Positions 83 to 19,907 are shown, counted from the stretch's first letter. The stretch: DNA of 19,907 nt from a bacterium (GCA_029210545.1 JARGFV010000041.1:1-19907); one strand, 5' to 3'. Numbers and translations: made by a program. The notes: generated from the sequence alone by a model not told the origin.

Positions 83-157
83 GTTCACCGTTAACAGTAT
101 ACGGTTTGCAGTTAGGTCATGCCTGCACTGTGAACTGTAAACAGTGAATCGTAAACT
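83..157. repeat. Degenerate 7-nt periodic tract next to repeat copy A
   Basis: At 83-117 five consecutive heptamers all begin with GT (for example GTTCACC then GTTAACA). At 130-157 four more heptamers follow the pattern GTRAAYN (for example GTGAACT then GTAAACA). Unit sequence drifts but the 7-nt register is kept inside each block. No reading frame covers it. It lies just outside the end of repeat copy A. Confidence 0.65.
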
Positions 158-169
158 TCAGTATTCCCC

Positions 170-460
170 AGCCCCCTGTCTATAACCCGGTTTACAACCC
201 TGTGGTTTCTTTTGTGGAAATCGGTTTATGTGGAACAGTCGGAGATCTCCACCGATTCTTCCCCAGCTTCTTCCACAGAACTCTTTCATTCATTACGGGG
301 GTTTATGGACGATTCCCCCGAATCCCCAGGACCTGTTACTCCTGCTACTGGTTTTAAAGAGAAATAAAGAAGAACTAAAGTGCGAAGCATTATGTACTAA
401 AGACAGTGTTTTTCTTCGTGGTTCAAGCCTTACGTTATATTTCGAACCTGAATCATCCAT
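170..460. other. Candidate replication origin region: DnaA-box-like sites and AT-rich stretch
   Basis: Position 177-185 (TGTCTATAA) matches the DnaA-box consensus TGTGNATAA at 8 of 9 positions. Three weaker sites share TGTGGAA or TTCCACA, at 213-221, 229-237 and 269-277, each 7 of 9 to TTATCCACA. An AT-rich stretch at about 345-460 could serve for unwinding. Location is the main support: origins often lie beside dnaA-dnaN-recF-gyrB. No perfect box is present and dnaA is absent, so this is a candidate only. Confidence 0.35.
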
Positions 461-465
461 TTCAG

Positions 466-507
466 ACACTTTTTATTGGCGCAAAAATGCCCGCCAATAA
501 AAAGTGT
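466..507. repeat. Perfect 16-bp palindrome upstream of dnaN
   Basis: ACACTTTTTATTGGCG at 466-481 is exactly complementary to 492-507, with a 10-nt loop. The stem is AT-rich and is followed by TAAGTGTTGC rather than a run of T, so it is not a classical intrinsic terminator. It is close in geometry to the palindrome at the end of gyrB (16-bp stem, 11-nt loop) but has a different sequence. It sits directly before the possible dnaN promoter. Confidence 0.7.
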
Positions 508-513
508 TAAGTG

Positions 514-543
514 TTGCTTTACGGTCCTCCGTTGGGGTAAAAT
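514..543 (+). promoter_or_regulatory. Possible sigma70-type promoter for dnaN
   Basis: TTGCTT at 514-519 and TAAAAT at 538-543 are separated by 18 nt. The -10 matches the consensus at 5 of 6 positions; the -35 is weak (TTG only). It would give a leader of about 165 nt before dnaN. This is a motif match only. Confidence 0.3.
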
Positions 544-716
544 ATCGCTGCCCCATTATGTTTCCGGGGGAGATTTTCCGGCTCATTTCACGCCAGAAGA
601 CTGGTAGCGGTGCGTCCGTACAGACCGAACACAACCCCGCGGTCGAAAGGTTTGTTTCGATGGCGGGTCGGATCGGTGCATGAGGCCCCAGTGGCCCCAG
701 AACAGGAGGTTTGAAG

Positions 717-1838
717 GTGCTGACCTTTTCCATCAACCGGGAAGAGTTTCTTCAGGGGTTGTCGAGAGTTCAGAATATCGTTGAACGCAAGAATACCGTT
801 CCGATTCTGAGCAACGTTCTTATCGACGGGACCGGTGACAGGTTGAAAATGCTGGCCACCGATATGGAGGTGGGGATCAGCGGGTTTGTAGAGGCTTCCG
901 TCAAAAGCCAGGGAGCGGTCACCCTGTCGGCCAGAAAGCTTTTCGAGATCATCAAGGAGCTTCCAGCCGAATCCTCCATCACCCTTCAGGTCAAGGAGGA
1001 CAATCTTTCGGAGATAACGTGCGGCAACTCCTCCTTCGAACTGAAAGGCCTGCCTGCCGAGGACTATCCAAGCCTCCCCATCTACGAGGATGGTAACTTC
1101 CTTACCCTGAACGCCGAGAATTTCAAGGAGATGATCAAGAAAACGATCTACGCCGCCTCAACGGATGAGACCCGCTATAACCTGACGGGTGTCCTTTTCG
1201 AGATGGAGGAGAAGGACGGCAAGGGGATCTTGAGACTCGTTGCCACGGACGGCCACCGCCTGGCCAAGGTGGAAAAGGGGGCCGAGGGAAATATCCGGCC
1301 TGGAGAGAGCGTTGTTATCCCCCGAAAGTCCCTCAACGAGGTCCGGAGGCTCCTGGAGGAGGGTAGTGACGAGATGGTGGAGGTGGATTTTCAGAAGCAG
1401 CATGGGGTCTTCCGCAAGGATTCCATCGTCCTCACCACCCGCCTTATCGACATGTCCTTTCCCAACTGGAAACAGGTCGTCCCTGAAGAACGGGTGTTTG
1501 TGGCCCAAGCCGACTGCGAGTCGATGATACGCGCCATCAGGAGGGTTTCCCTGCTGTCTTCAGAGCGGTCCAGGGCCGTCAAGTTCGCCTTCGGCGGGGG
1601 AAATGTGACCATTCACATCAACAACCCGGATCTTGGAACTGCCACGGAAACGGTGCCCGTCACTTATGATGGAGACGACGTGGAGGTTACCTTCAATGCG
1701 CGATACATGCTCGACGCCCTCACCTCCATGACCACCGAAACAGTGGAGTTGGGACTCAAGGATGAACTCAGCCCTTGTGTGGTATCCCAGAAGGGGCAGG
1801 AGGATTACATCTCGGTCATCATGCCCATGCGCATCTGA
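717..1838 (+). CDS. dnaN: DNA polymerase III sliding clamp, beta subunit
   Basis: This encodes the ring-shaped processivity clamp that tethers the replicative polymerase to DNA. At about 373 aa it has the normal length for the three-domain bacterial clamp. The N-terminus (FSINREEFLQGL) and the C-terminal ending YISVIMPMRI are family hallmarks; the internal segment VATDGHRLA is also typical. An AGGAGG at 704-709 lies 7 nt before GTG 717, so I chose that start. An in-frame TTG at 711 would add two residues but sits only one base from the ribosome-binding site. The stop is 3 nt before recF, so the two genes are almost certainly co-transcribed. The gene normally found upstream, dnaA, is not within the window. 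Confidence 0.97.
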   Translation: MLTFSINREEFLQGLSRVQNIVERKNTVPILSNVLIDGTGDRLKMLATDMEVGISGFVEASVKSQGAVTLSARKLFEIIKELPAESSITLQVKEDNLSEITCGNSSFELKGLPAEDYPSLPIYEDGNFLTLNAENFKEMIKKTIYAASTDETRYNLTGVLFEMEEKDGKGILRLVATDGHRLAKVEKGAEGNIRPGESVVIPRKSLNEVRRLLEEGSDEMVEVDFQKQHGVFRKDSIVLTTRLIDMSFPNWKQVVPEERVFVAQADCESMIRAIRRVSLLSSERSRAVKFAFGGGNVTIHINNPDLGTATETVPVTYDGDDVEVTFNARYMLDALTSMTTETVELGLKDELSPCVVSQKGQEDYISVIMPMRI

Positions 1839-1841
1839 ACC

Positions 1842-2993
1842 ATGAGGTTGCTGTGGGTTGAGCCGGACCGCTTCCGGAACCTTGACCGGAAAACGGTTGA
1901 GCTCCACCCGCGCTTCAACCTTTTACTGGGCCGAAACGGGCAGGGAAAGACGAACTTTCTCGAGGCGGTCGGGTATCTCGGCAGCCTTCGGTCGTTCCGA
2001 TCAGGCGGCAGGGTCGAGATGATACGCCACGGTGAGTCAGCAGGACGCGTCACAGGTGCCGTCTCTTCCGGAGGGCTGGATCGGGTCCTCTCTTTTACCC
2101 TGACCGGCAGAGGGCGCCAGCAATATATCGACGACCAGAAGGTCAATTCGCCCGAGCAGTACCTGCAGGTTTTGAAAGTGGTCCATTTCATACCCGAGGA
2201 TGTGAGCCTGGTAGGTGGCTCGCCTTCCTGGCGCCGCAAGGTTATCGACAGGGCCGTTTTCGAGATCGTCCCCGAGTACGCCAGGGAGTACCGGCGATAC
2301 CTGTCGGCTCTCAGACAGCGAAATGCGCTGCTCAGAAGAGGGGGGGGGCGTTTCGGGGAACTGGAAGGGTGGAACAAGGCTCTCGCTGCTGCCGGGGCAG
2401 TCCTGGTGTGCAGGAGGATGGAACTTCTCCACACCCTGAACCCGAGGATGAAACATCTGGGGGAAAGGCTCGGGCTGGGTCCGGGGCTGGGGTTGGAGTA
2501 CACTCCGGGTTTTACCGTCCCTGACGATGCCTGGCCCGGCGGCCCCGGGAAGCTGACTCAGCTCATCGGGACGATCGAAAACTCGATATTGGAAGAACTT
2601 GCGAGGGTCCGGACCCGGGAGTCACGGTTAGGCCACTCCCTTGCGGGTCCTCATCGGGACAACATCCAGTTCACCCTCGGCAGCCCGGACCATCCGACGG
2701 ATCTTGCGCGGTACGGTTCCCAGGGTCAGAAACGAAGCGCGGTCCTGGCGTTCAAGCTGGCCCTGGCGGCAGCTTTTCGCGATACCCACGGGGCGTGGCC
2801 CCTTATCCTCCTCGACGATGTGGCTTCGGAGCTGGATGAAACCAGAAGAAAAGCCCTGGGGAGCCTGGTCGTGGATATGAAAGCCCAGTTCCTCATCTCC
2901 ACGACCGGAGAAGAATACATGTTCCTCCCGTCAGGGGAGGGGAAAATATGGACCGTTGATCAGGGCGAACTGAAGCCGTTTGGCAGGAGTTGA
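1842..2993 (+). CDS. recF: DNA replication and repair protein RecF
   Basis: RecF is an SMC-like ATPase that helps load RecA at gapped DNA and stalled forks. At 383 aa it is of ordinary length. The Walker A motif is at residues 30-37 (GRNGQGKT), the ABC-type signature at about 291-296 (YGSQGQ followed by KRSAVLA), and Walker B at about 321-326 (LILLDD). The N-terminal RFRNL segment is also typical. The start ATG lies 3 nt after the dnaN stop with no clear ribosome-binding site of its own, which suggests translational coupling. The stop codon overlaps a short hairpin at 2991-3009. gyrB follows after 41 nt. Confidence 0.96.
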   Translation: MRLLWVEPDRFRNLDRKTVELHPRFNLLLGRNGQGKTNFLEAVGYLGSLRSFRSGGRVEMIRHGESAGRVTGAVSSGGLDRVLSFTLTGRGRQQYIDDQKVNSPEQYLQVLKVVHFIPEDVSLVGGSPSWRRKVIDRAVFEIVPEYAREYRRYLSALRQRNALLRRGGGRFGELEGWNKALAAAGAVLVCRRMELLHTLNPRMKHLGERLGLGPGLGLEYTPGFTVPDDAWPGGPGKLTQLIGTIENSILEELARVRTRESRLGHSLAGPHRDNIQFTLGSPDHPTDLARYGSQGQKRSAVLAFKLALAAAFRDTHGAWPLILLDDVASELDETRRKALGSLVVDMKAQFLISTTGEEYMFLPSGEGKIWTVDQGELKPFGRS

Positions 2994-3009
2994 CGGCAAA
3001 ACGCCGTCA
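2991..3009. repeat. Short hairpin overlapping the recF stop codon
   Basis: TGACGGC and GCCGTCA form a 7-bp stem around AAAAC. The recF stop TGA is the first three bases of the stem. No T-run follows, and gyrB starts shortly after, so termination is unlikely. It is one of several stem-loops in this window that begin inside a stop codon. Confidence 0.5.
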
Positions 3010-3019
3010 GCCTGCCTGA

Positions 3020-5596
<2,577 letters not shown>

Positions 5597-5598
5597 AT

Positions 5599-5640
5599 GG
5601 GGAAACGGGAACGGGTGAAAAGGAGAAAAGGAGAAAAAGG
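5599..5640. repeat. Purine-rich near-7-nt periodic tract after gyrB
   Basis: Units such as GGGGAAA, CGGGAAC and GGGTGAA follow one another from 5599 and then grade into AAGGAG-rich sequence with a local 8-nt period. It directly follows the gyrB palindrome. It has no coding potential. The gyrB-gyrA gap (5576-5709) holds this tract and little else that I can recognise. Confidence 0.45.
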
Positions 5641-5709
5641 CTGTTTTGTAGCCTCTTCCCGCGTCGAGCAAGTACACCTAACAGAACAACCGAGACAGCG
5701 AGACTGTAA

Positions 5710-8157
<2,448 letters not shown>

Positions 8158-8370
8158 AGGGGAAAGATCCGGCGTTCCGAGTGGGCGAGGGGGGAGGCCG
8201 GGGGAAAGAGCGAGCAGTATCGCCTGCCCATCGATGAAGAGCCGTAGTTGCGTGCGTGCGTGCGTCCGTCCGTAAGTGCTTTAATAAAAAAAGTCTGTTG
8301 TCAATGGAAGATCTTACGCGCTAACGCACACACACTCCACTCACATACGAAGAAACGCACGAGGGAAAAG
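8158..8370. repeat. gyrA to pilZ spacer with microsatellite and loose 7-nt tract
   Basis: TGCG is repeated four times and TCCG twice at 8249-8272. An A/T-rich stretch (8280-8292) follows. From 8314 to 8362 is an A/C-rich tract that can be read in heptamers (TTACGCG, CTAACGC, ACACACA). CGTAAG near 8271-8276 and CTTACG near 8313-8318 are complementary, so the two halves could pair weakly. I see no convincing terminator or promoter here. Confidence 0.4.
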
Positions 8371-8709
8371 ATGGACGACAAAAGGAGGCACTCCAGGTAC
8401 CCGGCGGCAGAGATGACCTATGTGGTCGGGCTTCAGAGTCCGGCCCTTATCACCGACGTGAGCCAGGGTGGTCTCGGAGTGCGTTACAAGGGTACCGACG
8501 AACTTCCCGGGGAGTTGGTGGTGGACCTTCTCAACGCCTCGCAGAGCATCCAGCTTGAGAAGGTACGATGCCGGAAGGTCAGAGACGAGACCGTGGGCAG
8601 GGTGGCCGTGTTCAGCTATGTGACCGAACGCCGGCTGGGACTCGAATTCGTGGAACCGGGCAATGACATACTGGACGCGCTGGCCAGGTTTGTGGGAAAA
8701 GAGAACTAG
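8371..8709 (+). CDS. PilZ-domain protein, first of a tandem pair
   Basis: This is a single-domain protein of 112 aa predicted to bind cyclic-di-GMP. The N-terminal RRHSR fits the RxxxR motif and DVSQGGLGV fits (D/N)xSxxG; both are the known ligand-binding signatures of PilZ domains. LGLEFVEP near the C-terminus is the usual last strand. No signal peptide or membrane segment is visible, so it should be cytoplasmic. The chosen ATG 8371 has GAGGGA just upstream; the open frame extends further 5' but only through low-complexity sequence. It resembles the next gene in motif order and length, so the two are probably paralogues. Its target (motility, polysaccharide secretion or other) cannot be read from the sequence. 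Confidence 0.85.
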   Translation: MDDKRRHSRYPAAEMTYVVGLQSPALITDVSQGGLGVRYKGTDELPGELVVDLLNASQSIQLEKVRCRKVRDETVGRVAVFSYVTERRLGLEFVEPGNDILDALARFVGKEN

Positions 8710-8775
8710 GAGTCTGTCGGACTATCCGTTTCAGACTCCTGGCAACGTGTCGGTAAGGTCCGACACGTTGCCAGG
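8708..8775. repeat. Double hairpin beginning inside the first pilZ stop codon
   Basis: Hairpin 1 (8708-8740) pairs AGGAGTCTG with CAGACTCCT. Hairpin 2 (8738-8775) pairs CCTGGCAACGTGTCGG with its exact complement around a 6-nt loop, a perfect 16-bp stem. The two share the bases CCT. Hairpin 1 starts at the second base of the TAG stop. The same arrangement follows the second pilZ gene, interrupted by an insertion. Confidence 0.85.
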
Positions 8776-8778
8776 ATC

Positions 8779-8806
8779 AGTGGAAAGTGGAAAGAAACAG
8801 GATGAA
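8779..8806. repeat. Heptamer tract after the first double hairpin
   Basis: AGTGGAA is repeated twice in exact 7-nt register at 8779-8792, followed by AGAAACA and GGATGAA. A matching tract with the same AGTGGAA unit follows the second pilZ gene at 9363-9397, which supports duplication of the whole gene-plus-spacer unit. Confidence 0.6.
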
Positions 8807-8827
8807 GGGCGCGGGAAGGGCGATAGC

Positions 8828-9181
8828 ATGGCGATGATGGAAAAGCACGAGGACAAGAGACGGCACCCAAGGTTCCGGGCGGCCGACAGCGCGCTTGCCG
8901 CCTGCGGCATGGAAGCGTGCGCTCTCCTGGACGTGAGCGCGGGAGGGCTGGGCATCCAGTATTACGGCGAGAGACCGTTCCCCCGGGAGATCAGTGTCGA
9001 TCTTCTGTTTTTAAACAGGGATCTGACCTTGCCGGGGCTTTTCTGCCGAAAGGTGTTCGAAGCGAGAAAGCCCAACGGGAAGGAAGGGCGCCTGCCTGTA
9101 TGGCATGTGGGCCTTGAGATCGTAAGCCCCACTCCGGAGATGGTTCAACGCCTGCGTCATTTCAGATGGACGGAGAGCTAG
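8828..9181 (+). CDS. PilZ-domain protein, second of a tandem pair
   Basis: This 117-aa protein carries RRHPR (RxxxR) near the N-terminus and DVSAGGLGI as the (D/N)xSxxG motif, so cyclic-di-GMP binding is predicted. It shares architecture and several segments with the preceding gene (KRRHxR, DVSxGGLG, FCRKV against RCRKV, LGLE against VGLE). It is soluble, with no export signal. The start at ATG 8828 has GGGAAGGG about 7 nt upstream; the frame stays open further 5' but through hairpin sequence. The stop TAG is entered by the same AGGAGTCTG hairpin as in the first copy. The protein is somewhat shorter in its loops than full YcgR-type proteins and has no partner domain. Confidence 0.83.
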   Translation: MAMMEKHEDKRRHPRFRAADSALAACGMEACALLDVSAGGLGIQYYGERPFPREISVDLLFLNRDLTLPGLFCRKVFEARKPNGKEGRLPVWHVGLEIVSPTPEMVQRLRHFRWTES

Positions 9182-9342
9182 GAGTCTGTCGGACTATCCG
9201 TTTCAGACTCCTAGCTTAAGTTTTTCGAAAGGCAATTCAGCGAAAAACGGGGAAGCATCCAAAATAAGGGGCATTTCGAAAAACTCCTCGCAACGTGTCG
9301 ATAAAGTCCGACACGTTGCGAGGCTTTCGCTCTGCGAAAGCC
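9180..9342. repeat. Second double hairpin, split by an insertion, plus a third hairpin
   Basis: Hairpin 1 (9180-9212) is identical to 8708-8740 and again starts inside the TAG stop. Hairpin 2 (9286-9323) has a perfect 15-bp stem CCTCGCAACGTGTCG and is homologous to 8738-8775. Between them lies an extra segment annotated separately. A further hairpin GGCTTTCGC/GCGAAAGCC with a 3-nt loop occupies 9322-9342. None is followed by a T-run. These account for most of the 287-nt gap before the next gene. Confidence 0.8.
9213..9288. mobile_element. 76-bp miniature insertion with inverted repeats and 5-bp direct repeat
   Basis: Compared with the uninterrupted double hairpin at 8708-8775, this segment is extra. 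It is flanked by CTCCT at 9208-9212 and again at 9284-9288, as expected for a target-site duplication. Near its ends it carries a perfect 12-bp inverted repeat, AGTTTTTCGAAA at 9219-9230 and TTTCGAAAAACT at 9274-9285. It encodes nothing. The insertion reading rests on comparison with the paralogous spacer. Confidence 0.6.
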
Positions 9343-9362
9343 CAGGGATGGGGAAGACCGTA

Positions 9363-9397
9363 AGATAAAAGTGGAAAGCGGGAAGTGGAAAAGACCG
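9363..9397. repeat. Heptamer tract after the second pilZ spacer
   Basis: AGATAAA, AGTGGAA, AGCGGGA, AGTGGAA and AAGACCG follow in exact 7-nt register. The AGTGGAA unit is shared with 8779-8792. The rest of the spacer up to 9468 shows nothing further that I recognise apart from the ribosome-binding site of the next gene. Confidence 0.6.
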
Positions 9398-9468
9398 GTA
9401 ATAACACCACAGAAACTCCTCCTGCTGCGCCGCACCTTCAAACACGATAAAAAGCAAGCGAGGCGTTT

Positions 9469-10275: not shown

Positions 10276-10340
10276 AAAAGGTTGGATTGCCAGGGACTGA
10301 GTGGAGAACTCCGTTTGATTCTGGCAACCGGACCTTTTTT
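10274..10340. terminator. Bidirectional intrinsic terminator between the TPR gene and guaC
   Basis: The left arm at 10274-10293 begins with AAAAAAGG and the right arm at 10321-10340 ends with CCTTTTTT. The arms pair through GCCAG/CTGGC and AAAAAAGGT/ACCTTTTTT with a few mismatches between, so on either strand the stem ends in a T-run. It overlaps the stop codons of both convergent genes, as expected for a shared terminator. Confidence 0.75.
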
Positions 10341-11376: not shown

Positions 11377-11873
11377 GGATATAACTCCCCTTTCCGCTCC
11401 GGATCTTAAACGATTCCCGCTCCTGTTTGCCAGGTCAACGATCTTGAATTCTAATATCATATCGCAATTCCGGAGTCTTGGGAGGGTCTGTCGATACAAC
11501 GCGGAATCCGGTTGACGCATCCCGCCTTGCAAAAAGGAAACACCGCCACAAGATAGGCAGAGGAGGTCCGGAGAGTGCCGTTCCTGCAGCGGTTTAAACC
11601 GGGATTCCCGGTGATCTGTCGGAGCAAGACGACCCAGGCCGGTCGAGCGCTGTTTCAGGACGGATCAAAGGGTGTCAACCATCCTCATAAGGTGAAGCGG
11701 GACTGCAGCCGCCAATGGGGCATCGAAAAAGGCTTGTTCCACGCTGGAAACCAGGAACTAAGAACTTAAGAATCAGGAACCAGGACCCCAGGAACGAAGA
11801 ACGAAGACCTGTCAGCCAGGAGGCGATTTCCGGCTGATAGCTAAAATCGTTCGACTGCCTTATTATTGGACTT
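11377..11873. other. Divergent spacer between guaC and pldA, with a 7-nt periodic tract
   Basis: About 500 nt separate two divergent genes, so promoters for both should lie here, but I find no convincing -35/-10 pair. At 11753-11808 eight heptamers run in register (AGGAACT, AAGAACT, then CAGGAAC, CAGGACC, later CGAAGAA, CGAAGAC). A 64-codon GTG-initiated frame at 11575-11769 has a good ribosome-binding site but ends inside the tract and looks non-coding. Confidence 0.55.
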
Positions 11874-12764
11874 ATGAAAAAAACTGCCCTTATTGTTGCT
11901 ATAGCCTTTTTCATGGCTGCCGGCAGCTCTAAAGCCGTCTCCGCTTCCCCCGATCAGTCCACCGCGGTGCGCCGGCGCCTCGCCATGGAGAGTGCGGCCA
12001 GGGACAACCCCTTTCTGATCCTGCCCCATCGGCCCAACTACATCCTGCCCCTTGCATATAACCTGCACCCCAACGACGAGGCGTCCGGGCTCGAACCCGG
12101 GACCCTTGACGAACTGGAGATGACCTTCCAGGTGAGCCTCAAGGTTCACTTGAGCGAGCTGTTTCCGGGAAACCGCGGGAACCTTTACGCGGCGTATACC
12201 AGCCGCTCGTGGTGGCAGGCCTACAGTGGCGACAGGTCACGGCCGTTCAGGGAGACCAACCATGAGCCGGAGCTGTTTCTCCTTTACGATACCGATTGGA
12301 GCGTTCTTGGGCTTCGGGCGTCCAGTGTGATCTTCGGTGTGTCCCACCAGTCCAACGGGCAGGACGGCGCCTTGTCACGCAGCTGGAACCGGATCTACAC
12401 AAGCATCATCCTCGAGAGGGGAAACGCCATAGTAAGCGTGAAACCCTGGTACCGTATCCCGGAAAGGGAAAAGGACGGCCCTGACGACCCCGATGGGGAT
12501 GACAACCCTGACATACGAACATACATGGGCTCCGGGGAACTGGGGGTCTTCTTCAGGCGGGCCCGTCACACTCTGACCCTCACGCTCCGCAACAACCTGC
12601 GCCGTGAAAACAAGGGATCTGTCGAGTTGGGGTACTCCTATCCGCTCACGGCAAAGATGAAGGGGTACCTGCAGATCTTCGATGGATACGGCGAAAGCCT
12701 TATCGATTACGACCATCGGATGTCGAGGGTGGGTGTGGGTATCCTGCTGGCGGATTGGCTGTAA
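11874..12764 (+). CDS. pldA: Outer membrane phospholipase A
   Basis: OMPLA is a calcium-dependent outer-membrane enzyme that hydrolyses phospholipids reaching the outer leaflet. The 296-aa length matches the family (about 290). A signal peptide covers about residues 1-24 (Lys-rich start, hydrophobic core, AVSAS cleavage region). The active-site residues H158, S160 and N172 lie in SHQSNG...SRSWNR, with the same spacing as E. coli His142/Ser144/Asn156. Other hallmark segments are SRSWWQAY, PFRETNHEPELF, VKPWYRIPE, DNPDI.TYMG and GYGESLIDYDHRMSRVGVG. The enzyme should sit in the outer membrane and become active on dimerisation. The start ATG has only a weak upstream GGA. Its gene converges with the TIR-like gene downstream. 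Confidence 0.96.
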   Translation: MKKTALIVAIAFFMAAGSSKAVSASPDQSTAVRRRLAMESAARDNPFLILPHRPNYILPLAYNLHPNDEASGLEPGTLDELEMTFQVSLKVHLSELFPGNRGNLYAAYTSRSWWQAYSGDRSRPFRETNHEPELFLLYDTDWSVLGLRASSVIFGVSHQSNGQDGALSRSWNRIYTSIILERGNAIVSVKPWYRIPEREKDGPDDPDGDDNPDIRTYMGSGELGVFFRRARHTLTLTLRNNLRRENKGSVELGYSYPLTAKMKGYLQIFDGYGESLIDYDHRMSRVGVGILLADWL

Positions 12765-12784
12765 CGGCTGCCAGGCCCAGCCGA

Positions 12785-12853
12785 GCGCGAAGCGCAAAGT
12801 TCGAAGCGCGAAGAAAAAGCCTGCCTTCGTTCATCGTGCTTCGTTCTTCGCTC
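12785..12853. repeat. Inverted pair of heptamer tracts between convergent genes
   Basis: GCGCGAA, GCGCAAA, GTTCGAA and GCGCGAA run in exact 7-nt register at 12785-12812. At 12826-12853 TTCGTTC, ATCGTGC, TTCGTTC and TTCGCTC do the same on the opposite strand sense. The two halves are partly complementary and could fold into one long imperfect hairpin, which may serve the convergent genes as a weak transcription barrier. That role is inference. Confidence 0.6.
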
Positions 12854-12877
12854 CGGGCCGCAGTTTCTCAGCGGCCC

Positions 12878-13861
12878 CTATTCAAACAACAGGTTGGCGT
12901 CGATGAAAAAGCCGTTGGCCTTTAGCTGTTTCAAAAGGCCGATCTGCCAGCCGCCTTCTTCCTGGTACTGGATGTAGCGAACACCGAAAAGCTGCTCAGG
13001 AAGGTCGCCTGGACGCTCCCCCTCAAACAGCACGGTCACCGCTCCCGGGCCCAGCCGACCAACGAAAAACCCCAATTTGTACGCCAATTCGTGCTTGGAT
13101 TTTCCCATCCCGATAACAGACGTAAGGCCGGAGAGCCCTCCCCTCTGCCCGACGGCGAGGATCAGGAGCGTGAAAGCGATATGATCCACTGAGGCCAGGC
13201 TTTCCATGGACAGGGCAGAAGGGTCCTGGCCCGGGACCTCTATAGAGATACCAAGGCGGCCAAGCAGCTGTTCGACTGACGGAGTGATCGCCTCCCCGGC
13301 GCCGGAAATGATAAGGACCTTGCCCGGCTGATTCTGGGTGGATGCGGGTTTTTGCGGCGCTGACTGCGGGGCGCCGGGTGGCGAGGGTGCGGGTTTTTCG
13401 GCCACGGTTTTCGAAGCCTGCGAAGGAGCCGGCTTGGGCGCCTCCTTCAAGGGCGCCTTCACGGCCTTGGCCCGCTCTTTGGGCGGTGACTGTTTCACCT
13501 CCACCAGGTCCTCGCTGGAAATCTCCTGGATCAGGTCCGGTTCATCGTCAATGCGGTCCATGAGTTCGAGGAGTTCCTCGAGCCTGGTGATAGCCTTGGG
13601 GACGCCCATCTCGTACTTGGACTGCTTTTCCGTTTTGGAGTCCGCCCTCGAAAGGGGCCCTGCGGATATCTTGAACTGTTCGAAAGCGTCGTGCTCCGGA
13701 GATTCGCTGCCGAAAACGTCACTGACAGATTGTGACACCGCCAGTTCGAGGTCTTCCACCTCCTGGCTGTCGAAAGGAACAATCCTCGGATCGATGGTCC
13801 GGAGCTGATCCAGGACCTCCTGGAGGAGTTCCCTGCCCTTTTTCCCGGATAACTGTGCCAT
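12878..13861 (-). CDS. Protein with N-terminal helical domain, Pro/Ala linker and degenerate TIR-like C-terminal domain
   Basis: At 327 aa, it has three parts. Residues 1-105 are mostly helical and include VFGSESPEHDAFEQFKI, reminiscent of domains found before TIR-like domains. Residues about 125-180 are a Pro/Ala/Lys-rich linker. Residues 180-327 resemble the predicted nucleotide-binding TIR-like family (PF10137): KVLIISGAG, LLGRLGISIEV, HELAYKLGFFVGRLG, VTVLFEGE...LPEQLFGVRYIQY, and GGWQIGLLKQLKANGFFID. In family members the middle segment usually reads like ELGYFIGKLG, with a Glu thought to be catalytic; here that position is Lys262. The start at ATG 13861 follows a GGGGG-containing ribosome-binding site; the frame is open 41 codons further up. 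No cyclase or other defence gene is adjacent. An NAD-cleaving role is doubtful. Confidence 0.65.
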   Translation of the reverse strand: MAQLSGKKGRELLQEVLDQLRTIDPRIVPFDSQEVEDLELAVSQSVSDVFGSESPEHDAFEQFKISAGPLSRADSKTEKQSKYEMGVPKAITRLEELLELMDRIDDEPDLIQEISSEDLVEVKQSPPKERAKAVKAPLKEAPKPAPSQASKTVAEKPAPSPPGAPQSAPQKPASTQNQPGKVLIISGAGEAITPSVEQLLGRLGISIEVPGQDPSALSMESLASVDHIAFTLLILAVGQRGGLSGLTSVIGMGKSKHELAYKLGFFVGRLGPGAVTVLFEGERPGDLPEQLFGVRYIQYQEEGGWQIGLLKQLKANGFFIDANLLFE

Positions 13862-14175
13862 GGGTGACCCCCTGCGATGCGTCCCGGCACCGGCGACATG
13901 TTGGAATAAGGAGAATAGCACCAATATGGTAGCACCTGGATGTCCTTTGTCCAAGTGCAGGAATTCGGGCATTTTTTCTCCCACCTGTCAAAGCTCCCTG
14001 GGCGCTTGGCCCAAACGAGAGTTATAATAGCCTATATATCGGGAACTGAGTACTGGGAACCGGGAACTCGGAACTAAAAACCAGCACCTGGAATCCAGGG
14101 ATGTGCAGGAAATCTATGGAGCAGGGCGCTTGCGAAAAACTTTTTACCGCTGACGGGTATAGTGGCCGCCGGACA
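13862..14175. other. Spacer upstream of the TIR-like gene with an eight-unit heptamer tract
   Basis: At 14041-14096 eight 7-nt units run in register, several as GGGAACT or GGGAACC. TATAAT at 14023-14028 and TATAGT at 14158-14163 look like -10 elements on the plus strand, but neither has a good -35 at the right distance. On the minus strand TTGACA (13986-13991) lacks a good -10. No gene is supported here. Confidence 0.5.
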
Positions 14176-14333
14176 TTGTAGAGTCGCAAAAAGTCCAATC
14201 CGGGACTTTTTGCTCCACGGAAAGGGAAGAACGTCGTTTTCCCTTTCCTCACGGATCAATGACTTACGGTGTGAGTCATTGATTTGGGCGCCCCGCGCGG
14301 GGCGCATTGATGGACTTTTTACGAGTCCATCAA
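14176..14333 (+). mobile_element. Complete miniature inverted-repeat element of about 158 bp with five hairpins
   Basis: Five stem-loops sit back to back: AAAAAGTCC/GGACTTTTT; GGAAAGGGAA/TTCCCTTTCC; ATCAATGACT (14255-14264) with AGTCATTGAT (14274-14283); an 18-bp perfect palindrome of GCGCCCCGC type (14288-14305); and TTGATGGACT (14307-14316) with AGTCCATCAA (14324-14333). The two outer ends are inverted repeats of each other: the left end of the family reads TTGATAGAGTCGCAAAAAG and the complement of the right end reads TTGATGGACTCGTAAAAAG. The first two hairpins recur at 1-70 and 19836-19905. It contains no frame of its own and ends 17 nt before the next start codon. Confidence 0.7.
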
Positions 14334-14350
14334 CCTTGGAGGTGATGGCA

Positions 14351-14566
14351 ATGTTGGATCTCGACGCCCAAGAGCGTGAAATCCTGGCCGACGTGCTGGA
14401 CACGCTGCTAGCCGACCTGAGAATGGAGATCGGTCGAACGGATCGGCAGGATTATCGCGTTATGCTGAAAAGACGCAAAGCCATCCTGGAAAAAGCCGTG
14501 GCCCATTTCAGGGGAGAGCAGGGTTTACAGATCGGGAGTGCGGGTCAGGGGGTGTTTCAACTCTGA
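14351..14566 (+). CDS. Small conserved-type hypothetical protein, 71 aa
   Basis: I do not know its function. The protein begins MLDLDAQEREILADVLDTLLADLRMEIGRT-like: an acidic helix, then ADLRMEIGRTDRQDY and a basic helix MLKRRKAILEKAVAHF. The pattern of a helical hairpin ending in DLRMEI..TDR..YR..LKRR is one I associate with small uncharacterised bacterial proteins. It is soluble and has no Cys. The start at ATG 14351 has GGAGG 8 nt upstream; an in-frame ATG at 14345 is too close to that site. The miniature repeat element ends only 17 nt before it, so its transcription may be driven or shaped by that element. Confidence 0.65.
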   Translation: MLDLDAQEREILADVLDTLLADLRMEIGRTDRQDYRVMLKRRKAILEKAVAHFRGEQGLQIGSAGQGVFQL

Positions 14567-15075
14567 CGACGGGATAAGGATCAGGAGCGATGGGCCAGGG
14601 GGTGCGGTACGGTCCCGATGTCGTTGAGCCGGGAGGTGTGCACCGCGGGATTCGAGGTCTGCCGTTTGACCTACAGGATGCCGGCCGGCCAGCGCCGGGT
14701 GATGGTTCGGTCAAGGGTTGAAGCAAAAGGATGGATGGATTTGTACTTAGGGAAACCCCCCGGCTTTGCCGGGGGACCCGAGAAGTTTGACAGTTCCTGG
14801 AGTAGGAGTAGGAGACCATTAATAAAGCTGACTCACCACAGCCTGTCCTGAGCTTGCCTGCAGTGAGCTTGTCGAACTGTCGAAGGGCGCGGCCGCTGGG
14901 AGGCCGCTCCCTTCGACAAGCTTCACAGTTCAAGCCCCCGACTTTGCCGGGGGTACATGGCTGTCAGCGAACCGGGAACCAGAAACTAATAACAAAGAGC
15001 TGGGAGCGAAGGATCGTATTAGCACATAGCCCCCAGTACCTGGCTCTGCAATTCTTCACAGCGAGGAGATCCCCC
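14567..15075. repeat. Gene-free spacer rich in hairpins, with a heptamer tract
   Basis: CCCCCGGC/GCCGGGGG form a hairpin at 14757-14775, and a near copy with the same CTTTGCCGGGGG lies at 14935-14953. Between them a long stem pairs TCGAAGGG (14880-14887) with CCCTTCGA (14909-14916) around GCGGCC/GGCCGC, with flanking AGCTTGTCGA/TCGACAAGCT-type sequence. At 14967-15008 heptamers GCGAACC, GGGAACC, AGAAACT run in register. I see no credible gene in this stretch. Confidence 0.6.
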
Positions 15076-15258
15076 ATGCCCCTTTATGAATTCGAATGCA
15101 AAAAGTGCAGGCGCCCTTTCGACAAGGTCATGAGCATCAGGGAGATGGAAACAGGGCAGGTTGAATGCCCCAGGTGCGGCTCCGACGATGTTTTGAAGCT
15201 CATCTCATCCGGTGGGATAAAGATCGGGATCGGCGGATACGCCGGTAAGGTAAAATAA
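15076..15258 (+). CDS. FmdB-family zinc ribbon protein
   Basis: This 60-aa protein opens MPLYEFECKKC, the typical start of the FmdB/regulatory zinc-ribbon family. Two CxxC knuckles, C8/C11 and C31/C34 (VECPRCGS), should bind one zinc ion. The C-terminal GGIKIGIGGYAGKVK is a short Gly-rich tail. Members of the family are small and mostly uncharacterised; the name derives from a formamidase gene cluster, so a direct role in that pathway should not be assumed. The start ATG 15076 follows GAGGAG at 7 nt; the upstream open frame has no family similarity. The next gene begins 202 nt downstream. Confidence 0.85.
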   Translation: MPLYEFECKKCRRPFDKVMSIREMETGQVECPRCGSDDVLKLISSGGIKIGIGGYAGKVK

Positions 15259-15460
15259 TCCAGCCTCCCGGGGCACCTGTCCCCGTCACCTCCCCGCCAA
15301 GCAGTCCGGAAAGATCCCTCTTCTCCTTGCCCGGCACGTTGGCCATGAGCCGGATCGCGGCAACGACGCGGCCGCGCCCGTACGGGACGAGGATCGGGAA
15401 GTTGATGATAACAGGCGGATTTGATGTAATATGGGGGATCTGCTCCGGAAGGAGAGCCGC

Positions 15461-16468
15461 TTGTCGAAGAGAAAGATAACCATGACAGCTGCCCTTGCTC
15501 TCGTGCTGTTTTGTTCCGGGGCCGCGGCAGCTGCCGAAACGGCGCTGATCGGGGACAGCATGGGCGCCTGCATGGGTGAAGAGGGGTTTGAAACGGCCTG
15601 GCTGGACAGGATCCATTCCTACATCACCAGGACCCTGTGCCAGCCTTCCGTGTGGTTCGACAACTTTTTCGGTGAACAACGTTCCGGCGAAGAGTGGCCT
15701 GGCAGCCTGGTGCGGTGGAGATCATCCTTTCGAAGGGACGAGAAGGAGGGGGATCTTTTCGGTTCCGGCGTGAGCGCCAGCCTGCGTCTCCCCAAGATGA
15801 GCCAAAAGTTCAGGCTGATAATCACCTCCCAGGACAATGACCTGGATGCGCCCGGCCATCCTGGTGAAGACCCTTTTCTGCAGGATACGGATCCAGGGGT
15901 TACTGCCGACACGAAACGAAGTGCCGCCGGTTTGAGGTATGACCTCTCCGACACCAGGCGGGCGAGACTTCACCTCGGAGCCGGGTTCCGTTTGACCGAT
16001 ACAGTGGAGCCGTACGTGCGTCTCCGCCTCAGGGTCACGGAACCCCTTTCGAGCCACACCCTTGTCAGGCTCACACCTGCTGTTGTCTGGTTCAGGGACG
16101 AGGGGATAAACCAGTCTTTCCGGATCGACTTTGACTGGAGGCTGGGAGAGAGCGCCCTCGCCAGGGCCACGGAGGCGGCGCTCTGGAAAGAGGTGGAACC
16201 GGGCGTCCAATGGGGTTCGGCTCTTTCCCTTTTTGACAGACTTGGTCCGACGGTCGTTGCGGGGATCGAGGGCTCTGCGGAAGGGAACACGTATCCAAAA
16301 AACGACGTTGCCCGCTACCGTCTCGTTACAAGGATCAGGTCAAATTTTATCCGTCCCTGGCTTTTCCTGGAGGCGGCTCCGGAACTCTACTGGCCTCGGG
16401 ACGACACAGGGCGCTACAGGAGGTACAAGGCGACCACCCTGAGGATCGAAGTCCAGTTCTTCAGTTGA
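15461..16468 (+). CDS. Predicted outer-membrane beta-barrel protein of unknown function
   Basis: Of 335 aa, it starts at TTG 15461, with AAGGAG 6 nt upstream. A signal peptide is clear: SKRK, then a hydrophobic core ALALVLFCSGAAAAAE. After a periplasmic-type segment (WLDRIHSYITRTLCQPSVWFDNFFG) the protein consists of alternating short strands rich in Arg, Leu, Phe and Tyr (RLHLGAGFRLTD, VEPYVRLRLRVTE, LVRLTPAVVWF), typical of barrel strands. The end RPWLFLEAAPELYWPRDD...TLRIEVQFF resembles an uncharacterised family of such proteins, and the aromatic terminus fits a barrel assembly signal. No catalytic triad like that of PldA is present, so it is not a second phospholipase. Function unknown. 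Confidence 0.7.
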   Translation: MSKRKITMTAALALVLFCSGAAAAAETALIGDSMGACMGEEGFETAWLDRIHSYITRTLCQPSVWFDNFFGEQRSGEEWPGSLVRWRSSFRRDEKEGDLFGSGVSASLRLPKMSQKFRLIITSQDNDLDAPGHPGEDPFLQDTDPGVTADTKRSAAGLRYDLSDTRRARLHLGAGFRLTDTVEPYVRLRLRVTEPLSSHTLVRLTPAVVWFRDEGINQSFRIDFDWRLGESALARATEAALWKEVEPGVQWGSALSLFDRLGPTVVAGIEGSAEGNTYPKNDVARYRLVTRIRSNFIRPWLFLEAAPELYWPRDDTGRYRRYKATTLRIEVQFFS

Positions 16469-16571
16469 AAAAGTGCCGGTGAAAACGCATCGGCCCCTGG
16501 GCATGGTCCGGAGAAAGCTCTTCGGATATATTAGGATAACAGGCCATGGAGCAGACGTCTGGAGGTGCTGG

Positions 16572-16934
16572 ATGAGTTTTGGCAGTGCGGAACCGTCCGT
16601 AAGCGGGAAAAGGGAACGCAGGGAGAGAGAAAAAAAGATCGCGGCCGTGGGATGGGGAGCGTTCTTCGTATGGCTCGGTTTTATCCTGATGATAAAGGCC
16701 GGATCCGGGGCGATCCTCATTGGTGTCGGAGTCATCAGCCTGTGTGTCCAGGTTGTGCGCAAGTACGCTGGTCTGGAATCGGAAGGGCTCTGGATCCTGG
16801 TCGCGATCCTTTTCATTGTCGTCGGGGTCTGGGAGGTGCTGGAGGTTCGTATCCCCCTCATGTCTCTTCTGCTCATCGTGGTTGGGGCTGCTTTTATCCT
16901 CTCTGCAGTGCGGAGGAAAAGCAACTCCCGCTGA
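16572..16934 (+). CDS. Small integral membrane protein with about four helices
   Basis: The protein is 120 aa. A short basic cytoplasmic segment (GKRERREREKK) precedes hydrophobic stretches at about residues 23-42, 43-60, 72-90 and 92-112, all of them Gly/Val/Ile-rich. No conserved polar residue inside a helix stands out, so it is probably structural or regulatory rather than a transporter. The start at ATG 16572 has GGAGG 6 nt upstream; the frame is open further upstream through non-conserved sequence. It lies 103 nt after the barrel gene and 106 nt before metF, in the same direction. I do not recognise a named family. Confidence 0.65.
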   Translation: MSFGSAEPSVSGKRERREREKKIAAVGWGAFFVWLGFILMIKAGSGAILIGVGVISLCVQVVRKYAGLESEGLWILVAILFIVVGVWEVLEVRIPLMSLLLIVVGAAFILSAVRRKSNSR

Positions 16935-17040
16935 CAGGCTCCTTGCCAAAACCCGCCGGGTTGCCTAGAATCCTGCCTTCGTGGTGTCCGCCGGACACCG
17001 TTCCCGTCATGACAGACCTTTGCCCCTTCGGAGTGAGCTT

Positions 17041-17904
17041 TTGAAGATCGGAGACATCCTCAAACAGGATCGACGCCTGTTATCCTTCGAATTTTTCCCG
17101 CCCAGGAACCCGGAGAGCGAGCACATACTCCACGAGACCGTGGAGGTCCTCAAGCGGTTCGAGCCCGACTTCGTCTCAGTCACTTACGGAGCCGGAGGCA
17201 GCACCAGGGACCGCACCCTCCAGTGGACCATCGACATCAAGGAGAGGTACGGTCTGGACGTTATGATGCACCTGACCTGCCTCGCTTCGACCCGTGAGGA
17301 TATCGGCAGCGTGGTCGAAGTTCTCAGGCACAGCGGGATCGAAAACGTCCTCGCGCTCAGGGGAGACCCCCCCAGGGACCTCCCGTTGGTCCAGGTGAAG
17401 GATGATTTCAGTTTTGCCTGTGAACTGGTCGAGTACCTGGAGAAGCTGGGCCGGTTTTCCATCGGGGTGGCCGGATATCCCGAAGGCCATCTGGAGTCAC
17501 CATCCCTTGAAACAGACATCCAATACCTCAAACAAAAGGTCGATGCCGGCGCCGATTTCATCATCACCCAGATCTTTTTCGACAACCGGTATTTTTTCGA
17601 TTTCGTGGATCGTGCCGCCTCTGCCGGGATCGATGTGCCCATCATCCCCGGGATCATGCCCATCGTCAACCTGGGCCAGGTGCAGAGGTTTACCCAGATG
17701 TGCGGGGCCACGGTGCCGGACCGGATCGTCGGGGAGATGGAGGGGCGGGACGATGAGGAAATGGTCAAGATCGGGATCGAGTACGCTGTCGGCCAGTGCC
17801 GTGAGCTCATCGATGCACAAGTCGCCGGGCTGCATTTTTACACGCTGAACCGGAACCAGGCCACAGAGCTGGTCCTGGACGAGATCGGCACCGACTGGCG
17901 CTGA
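17041..17904 (+). CDS. metF: 5,10-methylenetetrahydrofolate reductase
   Basis: MetF reduces methylenetetrahydrofolate to methyltetrahydrofolate using FAD, supplying methyl groups for methionine synthesis. At 287 aa it has the length of the bacterial single-domain TIM-barrel enzyme. The catalytic-type Glu is E17 in SFEFFPPR; YGAGGSTRDRT follows; D109 in LALRGDPP corresponds to the conserved Asp near FAD; ADFIITQIFFD and PIIPGIMPI are further family segments. The C-terminal GLHFYTLNR closes the barrel. I chose TTG 17041, with GGAG 7 nt upstream, because family proteins begin close to this point; an upstream GTG would add 20 residues with no similarity. In organisms with a Wood-Ljungdahl pathway a MetF can also work there, but no partner genes are in view. 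Confidence 0.93.
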   Translation: MKIGDILKQDRRLLSFEFFPPRNPESEHILHETVEVLKRFEPDFVSVTYGAGGSTRDRTLQWTIDIKERYGLDVMMHLTCLASTREDIGSVVEVLRHSGIENVLALRGDPPRDLPLVQVKDDFSFACELVEYLEKLGRFSIGVAGYPEGHLESPSLETDIQYLKQKVDAGADFIITQIFFDNRYFFDFVDRAASAGIDVPIIPGIMPIVNLGQVQRFTQMCGATVPDRIVGEMEGRDDEEMVKIGIEYAVGQCRELIDAQVAGLHFYTLNRNQATELVLDEIGTDWR

Positions 17905-18020
17905 TAGCAATTAAGCGCGCATGTGCACCAGTGCACTTGAACGTTCTGCACGACCCTTCCCCAATCCCCCGCCGGCATGTTATTAAAAGATGAGGGGGCG
18001 AATACGGAGGAGTGAGCGCA

Positions 18021-18839
18021 ATGATGGAAAAAATGTCGGAGCTCACCGGCAGGATCGGGAAGACTTTTGGGGCGGGAGATGTGGTGTTTCAGCAGGGGGA
18101 TACCGGGGACACCATGTATATCATCCATACCGGCACCCTGGCCGTCATCCGGGAAACGGAAGGCACCGGCACAGTGGTTGCCCGTCTCAACCCCGGGGAT
18201 TTTGTCGGAGAGATGGCCCTGGTAGACCAGGAGCCCAGGTCGGCTACCGTCAAGGCCATTGAAGAGGCAACCCTTGTTCCCATCACCCGGAGCTTTCTCC
18301 TCAAGCACAGCGCGAAGGACACCAGGTTCGTCCTGAACCTTATGGAAAGCCTCAGCGCCCGGCTTGAAAGGGTGGACGAAATGCTCAAGTGGCGGTTCGC
18401 CGAGTCGGGACCACCTGCCGGCCCGGCCGATGGACCTCCCGGCGACGAACCGAGGTCTGCCGCGTTCCTCAAAAGTTTCAGTGCCTCCCTGGACCCTGCC
18501 GCCCTCATCAGAGTCAACCAGGGAGATATTATTTTCCGTACCGGAGATGCCGGAGATGTCATGTACATCATCCTGGACGGTGAGGTTCACGTCAGCCAGG
18601 AGGAGGGGGGACAGCGCTTCGTGCAAGCTCGTTTCGGCAGGGGCCATTTCTTCGGTGAGATGGCTCTCGTCTCGGGTAGGCCCAGGGTGGCCACAGCCAT
18701 TGCCGCAGCACCGTCGGTGCTCATGCCGCTGACTCGCGAGACGTTCCTTCAGAAGGTGCAGACCGACCCCGAAGTTGCTCTTCACACGGTACAGATCCTC
18801 ATCGTACGCTTGAGGCGATCCCTGCAGATGCTCGATTAG
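18021..18839 (+). CDS. Protein with two cyclic-nucleotide-binding domains
   Basis: At 272 aa, it has two CRP-type beta-roll domains in tandem. The first has its phosphate-binding cassette at about 60-77 (GDFVGEMALVDQEPRSATV) and the second at about 208-225 (GHFFGEMALVSGRPRVATA). Both keep the Gly-Glu and Arg that contact the ribose phosphate. A helix resembling a CRP dimerisation helix (NLMESLSARLERVDEML) and a Pro/Gly-rich linker lie between them. There is no helix-turn-helix, kinase or membrane domain, so it looks like a sensor or adaptor that acts through a partner. GGAGG at 18006-18010 fits ATG 18021 (10 nt) better than the in-frame GTG 18012 (1 nt). The next gene starts 93 nt downstream on the same strand. 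Confidence 0.85.
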   Translation: MMEKMSELTGRIGKTFGAGDVVFQQGDTGDTMYIIHTGTLAVIRETEGTGTVVARLNPGDFVGEMALVDQEPRSATVKAIEEATLVPITRSFLLKHSAKDTRFVLNLMESLSARLERVDEMLKWRFAESGPPAGPADGPPGDEPRSAAFLKSFSASLDPAALIRVNQGDIIFRTGDAGDVMYIILDGEVHVSQEEGGQRFVQARFGRGHFFGEMALVSGRPRVATAIAAAPSVLMPLTRETFLQKVQTDPEVALHTVQILIVRLRRSLQMLD

Positions 18840-18932
18840 CCGGATTTTTCATGGCAGCTGGATAACCTCTTCCGACAAATTATATCCTGAAGCCTGGTGA
18901 AGTTCTTCAACAGACTCCCGGGGGGCAGTCCC

Positions 18933-19637
18933 ATGAGTACCATCCTGATCATCGATTCGGCCGAAACGTTTGCCCGTTACGTGGAACTGGTAGTCGGGCG
19001 CTACGGTTGCCGTACCATCGGGGTCAAATCAGCCCAGGAAGCCTTGAAGGTGCTGTCCGATGGGGCCGTGGATCTTGTCATCGCACAGGAGAATCTTCCC
19101 GATATGGAGTGGCCGGAGTTCTGTCGCCGGATCAGGGAAGGGTCCGACCCCTCCCGGGTCCCGGTGATCATGCTTTCAGCGGAACCGGCCAGGACCGGCA
19201 GCAGCGAGTGCGGCGGAGTCGTGGTAGCGGAGGTACGGACAAAGCCGATCTCCATAGGGGACCTCATCGATGTCCTGTCGGAATACCTTCCTTTACAAAA
19301 CAAGCGACGGACTCTCAGGGCCGCGGTTGCCTTGAGGGCACTCATTCGCATCGGAAGCGAGCTGATCCCCTGCCAGGTGCTCAACCTGAGCGAGGGAGGG
19401 GTCTTCGTGCTCAGAAACCAGCCGGGCGAGGTGGGGGACGATGTGACGCTGATCCTGCCCCTGCCCGGGCTTGAAAAACCGGTCAAGGTCGCCGGCAAGG
19501 TGGCTTACGTTATCAGGAAGAGCACCGAAAAAAAACCGAGGGGGATGGGGGTCCAGTTCGAAACCGTCCCCGACGAGACCACCGAACTTCTCCAGGCTTA
19601 CCTTGAGGACCAGGTCGCCACCATCCTGGGGCGATGA
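18933..19637 (+). CDS. Pseudo-receiver domain fused to a PilZ domain
   Basis: The protein is 234 aa. Residues 1-120 have the response-regulator fold pattern (TILIIDSAETFARYVE, DLVIAQENLPDMEWPEFCRRIR, VPVIMLSAEP, VRTKPI). The phospho-acceptor position in DLVIAQ is Gln52, not Asp, while K104 is kept, so phosphorylation of the usual kind is not expected. Residues 124-234 form a PilZ domain with RRTLR (RxxxR), NLSEGG and GMGVQF, so cyclic-di-GMP binding is predicted. The domain order recalls receiver-PilZ proteins of myxobacteria and other Deltaproteobacteria. The start at ATG 18933 was preferred over GTG 18897, since the fold begins right after it. Its stop overlaps the next start as ATGA. Confidence 0.8.
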   Translation: MSTILIIDSAETFARYVELVVGRYGCRTIGVKSAQEALKVLSDGAVDLVIAQENLPDMEWPEFCRRIREGSDPSRVPVIMLSAEPARTGSSECGGVVVAEVRTKPISIGDLIDVLSEYLPLQNKRRTLRAAVALRALIRIGSELIPCQVLNLSEGGVFVLRNQPGEVGDDVTLILPLPGLEKPVKVAGKVAYVIRKSTEKKPRGMGVQFETVPDETTELLQAYLEDQVATILGR

Positions 19638-19831
19638 AACTGCCGAAAGGAGCCACGTTCTGCGATCTGAGGTGCGCCTACGCCTCGGCACCACGCGCGG
19701 AGATGGACGGGGCGCGTTCATGCATGACATTTACCGCCATATGGTGTGAACTTCACGAGCGGCACGTCATGAAATCACAACCGTGCCGGGACCGGGAGGA
19801 AAGGAAAAGACCGGAAATCAGTAATCAATAA
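19634..19831 (+). CDS. Small Cys-rich protein coupled to the receiver-PilZ gene
   Basis: This 65-aa protein starts in the ATGA that ends the preceding gene, a layout typical of translational coupling. Five cysteines are spaced as C10-x3-C14, C30, C38 and C51 within CDLRCAYA, DGARSCMTF, IWCEL and QPCRD. The pattern is compatible with a small metal-binding or redox-active domain. I have an impression of small deltaproteobacterial proteins with a similar C..RC.Y / DG..SC.TF / YC / PC pattern, but cannot name a family. There is no signal peptide. The tail RDREERKRPE runs into a 7-nt periodic tract, so the last ten residues may not be under selection. The function is unknown; association with the PilZ partner is inferred from overlap. 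Confidence 0.6.
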   Translation: MKLPKGATFCDLRCAYASAPRAEMDGARSCMTFTAIWCELHERHVMKSQPCRDREERKRPEISNQ

Positions 19832-19832
19832 T
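19805..19832. repeat. Heptamer tract adjoining repeat copy C
   Basis: Heptamers AAAAGAC, CGGAAAT, CAGTAAT and CAATAAT run in register and end at the outer terminus of repeat copy C. The tract also supplies the final codons and stop of the small Cys-rich gene. The mirrored situation occurs at the left edge, where a heptamer tract lies just outside copy A. Confidence 0.5.
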
Positions 19833-19907
19833 GATAGAGTCGCAAAAAGTCCAATCCGGGACTTTTCGCTCCACGGAAAGGGAAAAGCGTCGTTTTCCCT
19901 TTCCTTA
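19831..19907 (+). repeat. Truncated copy C of the multi-hairpin repeat element
   Basis: Bases 19839-19905 are identical to the complement of 1-67 and differ from the complete copy at 14180-14249 at three positions. The perfect 12-bp stem GGAAAGGGAAAA/TTTTCCCTTTCC is present. The window ends before the third hairpin of the complete copy would appear, so the element is cut by the window edge. Confidence 0.85.

Follow-up and report, generated by a model that had tools for sequence, protein, structure and literature searches.

What produces the short tandem arrays in the spacers of this locus, whose units change from place to place at a common step of seven bases? The window, by which we mean the whole 19,907-nucleotide (nt) stretch analyzed here, corresponds to contig 41 in a draft genome of 2.72 Mb (a MAG of 241 contigs, 97.5% complete). 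It carries dnaN, recF, gyrB, gyrA, a YbgF/BamD-like TPR gene, a phospholipase A gene (pldA), a methylenetetrahydrofolate reductase gene, a cyclic-nucleotide-domain (CRP-like) gene, and a response-regulator gene. Its closest named GyrB matches are MAGs labeled Deltaproteobacteria (58% identity), and an Rfam search of the window returned no match. The window's genome (G000) is one of 12 collected from its phylum, all of a single family; 30% of it was read, with the array inventory drawn from 820 kb and the lag statistics from 400 kb. Spacers were defined with a simple codon-score ORF caller.

Autocorrelation of the spacers at lags 5 to 9 against shuffled controls, the check proposed in an earlier note on this DNA, yields an excess at lag 7 in both the window and the genome, relative to shuffles that keep dinucleotides only. 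Within the window's spacers, the match fraction at lag 7 is 0.296, versus 0.255 in dinucleotide shuffles (z = 5.9), and nine tracts exceed a fixed threshold, versus 0.02 expected; lags 14 and 21 are raised as well, and lags 5, 6, 9, and 10 are not. Across the spacers in 400 kb of the genome, z values reach 21, 11.7, and 9.4 at lags 7, 14, and 21, with 108 lag-7 tracts versus 1.6 in dinucleotide shuffles. Lag 8 forms a second, weaker peak (29 tracts), and lags 5, 6, 9, and 10 contribute 3 to 11 tracts, with lags 5 and 10 near background. The earlier note had named two outcomes that would speak against a seven-base period, no excess at lag 7 or an equal one at neighboring lags; the former did not occur, and the latter was approached halfway by the weaker excess at lag 8, which comes mostly from a distinct class of octamer arrays and not from blurred heptamers.

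The 820 kb inventory contains 110 intergenic lag-7 arrays (0.85 arrays per kb of spacer), compared to 0.023 per kb of spacer at approximately 76 control loci around gyrB in diverse bacteria. All 11 phylum members sampled for this comparison are enriched in heptamer arrays, at 0.14 to 1.78 per kb, some of the samples being small (9 to 320 kb for each relative). Exact two-copy duplications number 57 at 7 nt, 29 at 8 nt, and 20 at 14 nt, versus 0 to 4 each at lags 5, 6, and 9 to 13. These duplications peak at 7 and 8 nt, indicating that the length preference acts at the birth of an array or soon after.

Every tract in the window was tested against shuffles of its own sequence and judged a second time within its neighborhood. 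In nine of the 11 heptamer tracts listed in the earlier note, lag 7 scores best (P of 0.007 or less); the exceptions are those at 5599-5640 and 8314-8362. A degenerate array at 83-117 (GTTCACC GTTAACA GTATACG GTTTGCA GTTAGGT; lag 7, 0.61, P = 0.0005, weak in its neighborhood at P = 0.04) is the left arm of an inverted pair, whose right arm at 130-157 (GTGAACT GTAAACA GTGAATC GTAAACT; 0.62, P < 0.0005) is related to it by reverse complementarity. Between two PilZ-like genes, so named by inspection and with no NCBIfam match, lies a short array of 2.3 copies of AGTGGAA (8779-8799; 0.71, P = 0.007; TRF period 7), and a weak array of AGATAAA AGTGGAA AGCGGGA AGTGGAA occupies 9363-9397 (0.54, P = 0.002; neighborhood P = 0.08). 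The top-scoring array of the window, of the AACCAGG/GGAACGA family, lies upstream of pldA at 11749-11808 (0.65, P < 0.0005). A second inverted pair, (AGCGCGA)n and (CTTCGTT)n separated by 11 nt, is located between convergent genes at 12784-12853 (lag 7, P < 0.0005; TRF rows 12784-12813 and 12825-12850). The GGGAACT/GGGAACC array at 14041-14096 (0.61, P < 0.0005) has similar counterparts at other sites of the genome, with identities reaching 92% over 24 to 30 nt. It is followed by GCGAACC GGGAACC AGAAACT at 14967-15008 (0.63, P < 0.0005) and by a short array, AAAAGAC CGGAAAT CAGTAAT CAATAAT, that overlaps the 3' end of the last ORF at 19805-19832 (0.62, P < 0.0005; neighborhood P = 0.01). The tract at 8314-8362 shows no 7-nt period relative to its own shuffles (0.26, P = 0.74). 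Directly after gyrA, at 8249-8273, there is a tetranucleotide array of six TGCG units.

The remaining tract, 5599-5640 in the gyrB-gyrA spacer, is an 8-nt array rather than a heptamer array (lag 8, 0.71; lag 7, 0.49, P = 0.15): a lag-8 tract within it, at 5609-5637, repeats GAAAAGGA with a period of 8 and 100% matches. Octamer arrays form their own sequence class (GACRCGGR, TCTCCGYG, TACCTCCA, and GAAAAGGA), with other members in L089 (2594-2635), L095 (6989-7067), and L105 (7459-7529). Ten inverted pairs of octamer arrays were found, a weak excess over the 4.3 expected.

That each tract has its own unit, as the earlier note had it, holds insofar as the units are many, but they are not private to their tracts. 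The 110 arrays have 64 distinct consensus units, a number above that of any single-unit system but below the 97.7 that shuffled units would give, and near-identical pairs of units are about doubled (346 versus 152 expected). The window's genome shares nine units with G003, G008, and G011 (2.1 expected) and six with G001 (2.2 expected), and the distinct units carry a weak common pattern (z of 2.5 to 3.7). The most frequent are AATCAGT, AGGAGGG, AAATCTC, AAAGTCC, and AAACTGT, among which only AGGAGGG contains GGG, and within some arrays the heptamers combine into longer units of 14 and 21 nt, as in (CTGTCTACTGACTA)n and AGTGTAG-AGTGCAG-AGTGCAG. In G001, six positions of GTGATTN are kept and the seventh varies, with 139 exact triple matches versus 2 for the reversed control. 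The unit also occurs in a few genomes of other phyla, as an inverted pair in two of them. As a general rule, the scheme of six fixed positions and one free position was rejected, with uneven columns significant only in G001 (P = 0.0015, versus 0.15 and 0.16 elsewhere); TTGAGTN was likewise dropped as a second cross-phylum pattern, since its reversed control overlaps TTGAGTN itself and is uninformative. Similar mixed heptamer arrays were seen in other phyla, at L189 (G012), L211 (G040), L212 (G266), and L213 (G076), with GTGATTN/AATCACN as the inverted pair in L211 and L212.

The earlier note was largely correct in placing the arrays in spacers, although a few arrays are genuinely internal to genes or C-terminal. 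Most of the apparently genic arrays sit at overlong 5' ends of ORF calls and were discarded as coding-sequence arrays. Two mid-ORF arrays stand in an apparent reading frame (L102, 13343-13443), and a CAGGTTC array of five units forms the C terminus of an apparent ORF and ends in its stop codon (L092, 16176-16214). A step of 7 or 8 nt breaks reading frames, so that intergenic confinement is expected for any such step. Within the window's genome, array density is alike in tandem, convergent, and divergent spacers, and no preference for strand, gene orientation, or position within the spacer was found; a role linked to transcription was rejected because of this lack of bias.

Arrays tend to have inverted partners in several genomes. 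Within 150 bp of an array in the window's genome, a reverse-complement partner occurs 24 times, versus 3.8 expected, and direct partners show no excess; G008 has 7 inverted partners versus 1.1 expected, and no clear excess appears in G001, G002, G004, or G007. Close inverted pairs of the kind known from Xanthomonas are a feature of the window's genome and not of every relative. Paired arms are separated by 2 to 146 nt of sequence that shows no conservation; these heptamers also form opposite-strand pairs at variable distance, as in Geobacter metallireducens. Paired arms match at the level of the unit; unit-by-unit complementarity was looked for and is absent (356 versus 359 in permuted arms), as expected if each arm has been rehomogenized separately. 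The two pairs of the window, 83-157 and 12784-12853, fold only modestly as single-stranded DNA (z of -1.5 and -1.7), with the value of -1.7 belonging to 83-117 folding back on 130-157. The earlier note's further suggestion that most tracts abut a hairpin, and that the two may be produced or maintained together, did not survive genome-wide: 12.5% of arrays lie within 30 bp of a hairpin, versus 7% at random, and 3.8% versus 3.1% lie within 10 bp, and the link is not significant.

Comparison of the same loci in relatives, likewise proposed beforehand, reveals other units or no array in orthologous spacers. Of 138 pairs of orthologous spacers compared within the phylum, 12 have arrays in both members (8.0 expected if independent) and 43 in one only, and in none of the 12 is the unit kept, which amounts to full turnover between genera. 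The gyrB-gyrA spacer has AATTCAG in G003, an AGAATGT-type unit in G011, CTAGAAA in G010, and no array in G001 or G008. Where the window has AGTGGAA (8779-8799), G003 has CCAGAAT and G008 has CCAGACA, and the units downstream of pldA in G003 are unrelated to those of 12784-12853. Arrays with the same unit in the window's genome do not share flanks (mean score of 6.1 versus 6.0 for random pairs), so that dispersal with conserved flanks or a conserved core, as in REP/BIME elements or MITEs, is not seen there. It is seen in part in G001, in which some composite arrays are dispersed with their flanks and arrays that repeat one unit at several sites have flanks in common. In the composite spacers of G001 (L165, 7560-7960; L169, 10580-10900 and 15830-16650), AATCACN, AACYGTG, TTTTGGA, and CTCTGGA arrays alternate with fixed joints (ggcggttttc among them) and with a TTGTCATTGCGAAC..GAAGCAATC motif; these spacers are repeated within their region.

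Tandem copies typically come about by slipped-strand replication, and fold-back template switching is well established as a source of inverted ones. We regard it as somewhat probable (roughly 55%) that the arrays result from a lineage-specific, high-turnover simple-sequence process that combines 7- and 8-nt slippage with fold-back template switching and is tolerated in spacers. An array would be born when a stretch of 7 or 8 nt is duplicated, either through slipped-strand replication or when the nascent strand folds back and copies itself; in the latter case, a reverse-complement partner array would be left close by as well. Arrays would then grow and homogenize by whole units, decay through point mutation, and be lost, persisting only where a change of 7 or 8 nt is harmless, i.e., outside reading frames. 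The process would run across the whole phylum at a rate far above that of ordinary bacteria. The earlier note's proposal of local slippage or templated copying with a fixed step, without spread of one sequence, thus gains support for the local origin and the 7-nt step, but not for the independence of the units, which recur between loci and genera above chance. We infer that the arrays arise by slippage and template switching, that they are largely neutral, and that their step length stems from some property of the replication machinery. Loss of mismatch repair was rejected as the cause, as MutS and MutL are present, and so was a RAYT/Y1 transposase, which is absent from G007, an array-rich, 98%-complete relative.

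Several observations count against this process in its simplest form. Recurrent units and a weak common pattern are not predicted by random slippage, and families of the GTGATTN type look like constraint or sequence preference, arguing against pure slippage; the dispersal of composite arrays with their flanks in G001 and the lack of an inverted excess in four relatives also weigh against it. The recurrent units, the common pattern, and the GTGATTN type could mean that the arrays are clusters of binding sites, at which nucleoid-associated or regulatory proteins recognize a loose motif once per 7 (or 8) bp, a possibility strengthened by the inverted pairs and by the proposal that paired sites of Geobacter metallireducens bind IHF/HU-like proteins (PMC2700814). 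More than 60 units in one genome, without preference for promoters, operon ends, or strand, count against a binding-site role, as does the failure of orthologous spacers to conserve either array or unit, and we consider such a role unlikely on balance.

The shared flanks and regional repetition in G001, inverted partners that resemble terminal repeats, and the recurrence of unit families might instead reflect spread by copying, the arrays being parts of small, dispersed MITE- or REP-like elements with heptamer-array ends; since the window's genome lacks shared flanks for same-unit arrays, the segment between arms is unconserved, and the array-rich relative noted above has no Y1_Tnp/RAYT, we find this quite improbable. 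Least credible is a function as RNA or DNA hairpins (e.g., terminators or mRNA stabilizers) with heptamers as stem arms. Inverted pairs are in excess and some arrays give good single-strand folds (L093, z = -6.4; L156, z = -3.3), but most arrays have no partner, the arms lack unit-by-unit complementarity, the window's pairs fold modestly, and spacers between convergent genes of the window's genome are not enriched. A bolder version of the slippage account, to which we give only tentative credence, is that replication or repair in this phylum includes an activity that inherently steps by 7 nt (secondarily by 8 nt), mildly prefers certain sequences, and keeps adding short tandem and inverted arrays of near-arbitrary sequence to spacers; independently acquired or strengthened, it would also explain the arrays of Xanthomonas, Geobacter, and cyanobacteria.

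Heptamer arrays as such have precedents in a few other bacteria; what is unusual here is the diversity of units, the phylum-wide spread, and the demonstrated turnover. In the literature on bacterial heptamer arrays that we examined, neither the window's phylum nor its degenerate arrays are described. The cyanobacterial STRRs invoked in the earlier note are a fair comparison, but the Xanthomonas GGGAATC arrays and the paired heptamers and octamers of G. metallireducens are closer. The former are degenerate heptamers, e.g., (GGGANTN)n, mostly of about 4 units, approximately 90% intergenic, and on both strands, with 70 cases of close inverted pairs among 186 repeats in Xcc and strong change between close Xanthomonas species (PMC4692102). 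They are the closest in design: degenerate, on both strands, mostly intergenic, with close inverted pairs and fast change. Each Xanthomonas genome, however, has a single G-rich unit that forms quadruplexes, and its arrays are biased toward the preceding ORF (PMC4692102), whereas the present arrays have dozens of units, mostly without a G-run and so not with GGG and quadruplex potential throughout, and no preceding-ORF bias.

Putative global regulator sites of classes 1 to 3 and H4 heptamers have been described in G. metallireducens, including tandem heptamers (MTYCTGA and GGGACCG) and octamers (GTTGCTYN and TCTCCGTS[Y]), with classes 1 and 2 forming opposite-strand pairs at variable distance (PMC2700814). 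The tandem 7- and 8-mers, the opposite-strand pairing, and the variable distance are common to both systems; in a comparison limited to the published consensus strings, the phylum's AATTCAG corresponds to ATTCTGA, a form of class 3, and among the octamers TCTCCGYG is similar to class 2. G. metallireducens has a handful of classes with 16 to 49 sites each, and they are absent from G. sulfurreducens (PMC2700814), in contrast to the many more units, lower copy number, and whole-phylum distribution here. Cyanobacterial STRRs and the GGGGA(T/C)T arrays of Nostoc are likewise intergenic heptanucleotide tandem repeats, but few defined units per genome are reported there, and inverted pairs are rare in Nostoc (PMC4692102). 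As tandem 7-nt units that are intergenic and present in many copies per genome, the present arrays are of the STRR/LSSR kind; the one or few units per genome typical of, although not strictly required for, that kind are not found (64 units in 110 arrays). The TAACTGA repeats of Beggiatoaceae, Cyanobacteria, and Bacteroidetes are intergenic heptamers with one dominant unit, often just upstream of start codons, and Microcystis is reported to have a range of mixed heptamers (PMC4679880). AATCAGT, frequent here, is one mismatch from TAACTGA.

Why heptamers dominate among the longer bacterial tandem repeats is an open question. As summarized in later reports, Mrazek et al. 2007 found heptanucleotides to be the commonest class of long simple sequence repeats and proposed a 7-nt polymerase contact as the cause of slippage (cited in PMC4679880 and PMC4692102); that survey, so summarized, concerns long repeats in named genomes, as opposed to the degenerate arrays of one phylum. 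With many units, one step, and complete turnover of units between genera, the step length is separated from any single sequence, and the guess of a polymerase contact thereby becomes testable. The arrays are better read as the product of a copying habit, shared across the lineage and moving in steps of seven bases, than as a conserved signal, and their turnover cautions against taking arrays of this sort for conserved regulatory sites.

Two further repeats were observed in the window. The same block (GGAGTCTGTCGGACTATCCGTTTCAGACTCCT) lies directly 3' of both neighboring PilZ-like genes and is followed each time by a perfect hairpin with AACGTGTCG/CGACACGTT (8709-8776 and 9181-9323). A two-hairpin element of approximately 76 bp, AAAAGTCC..GGACTTTT then GGAAAGGGAA..TTCCCTTTCC, occurs at 1-70, 14181-14250, and 19832-19907; it is dispersed at 99 to 100% identity, with at least 40 copies scored among 328 first-look candidates in the genome, and it starts or ends many contigs, including that of the window.
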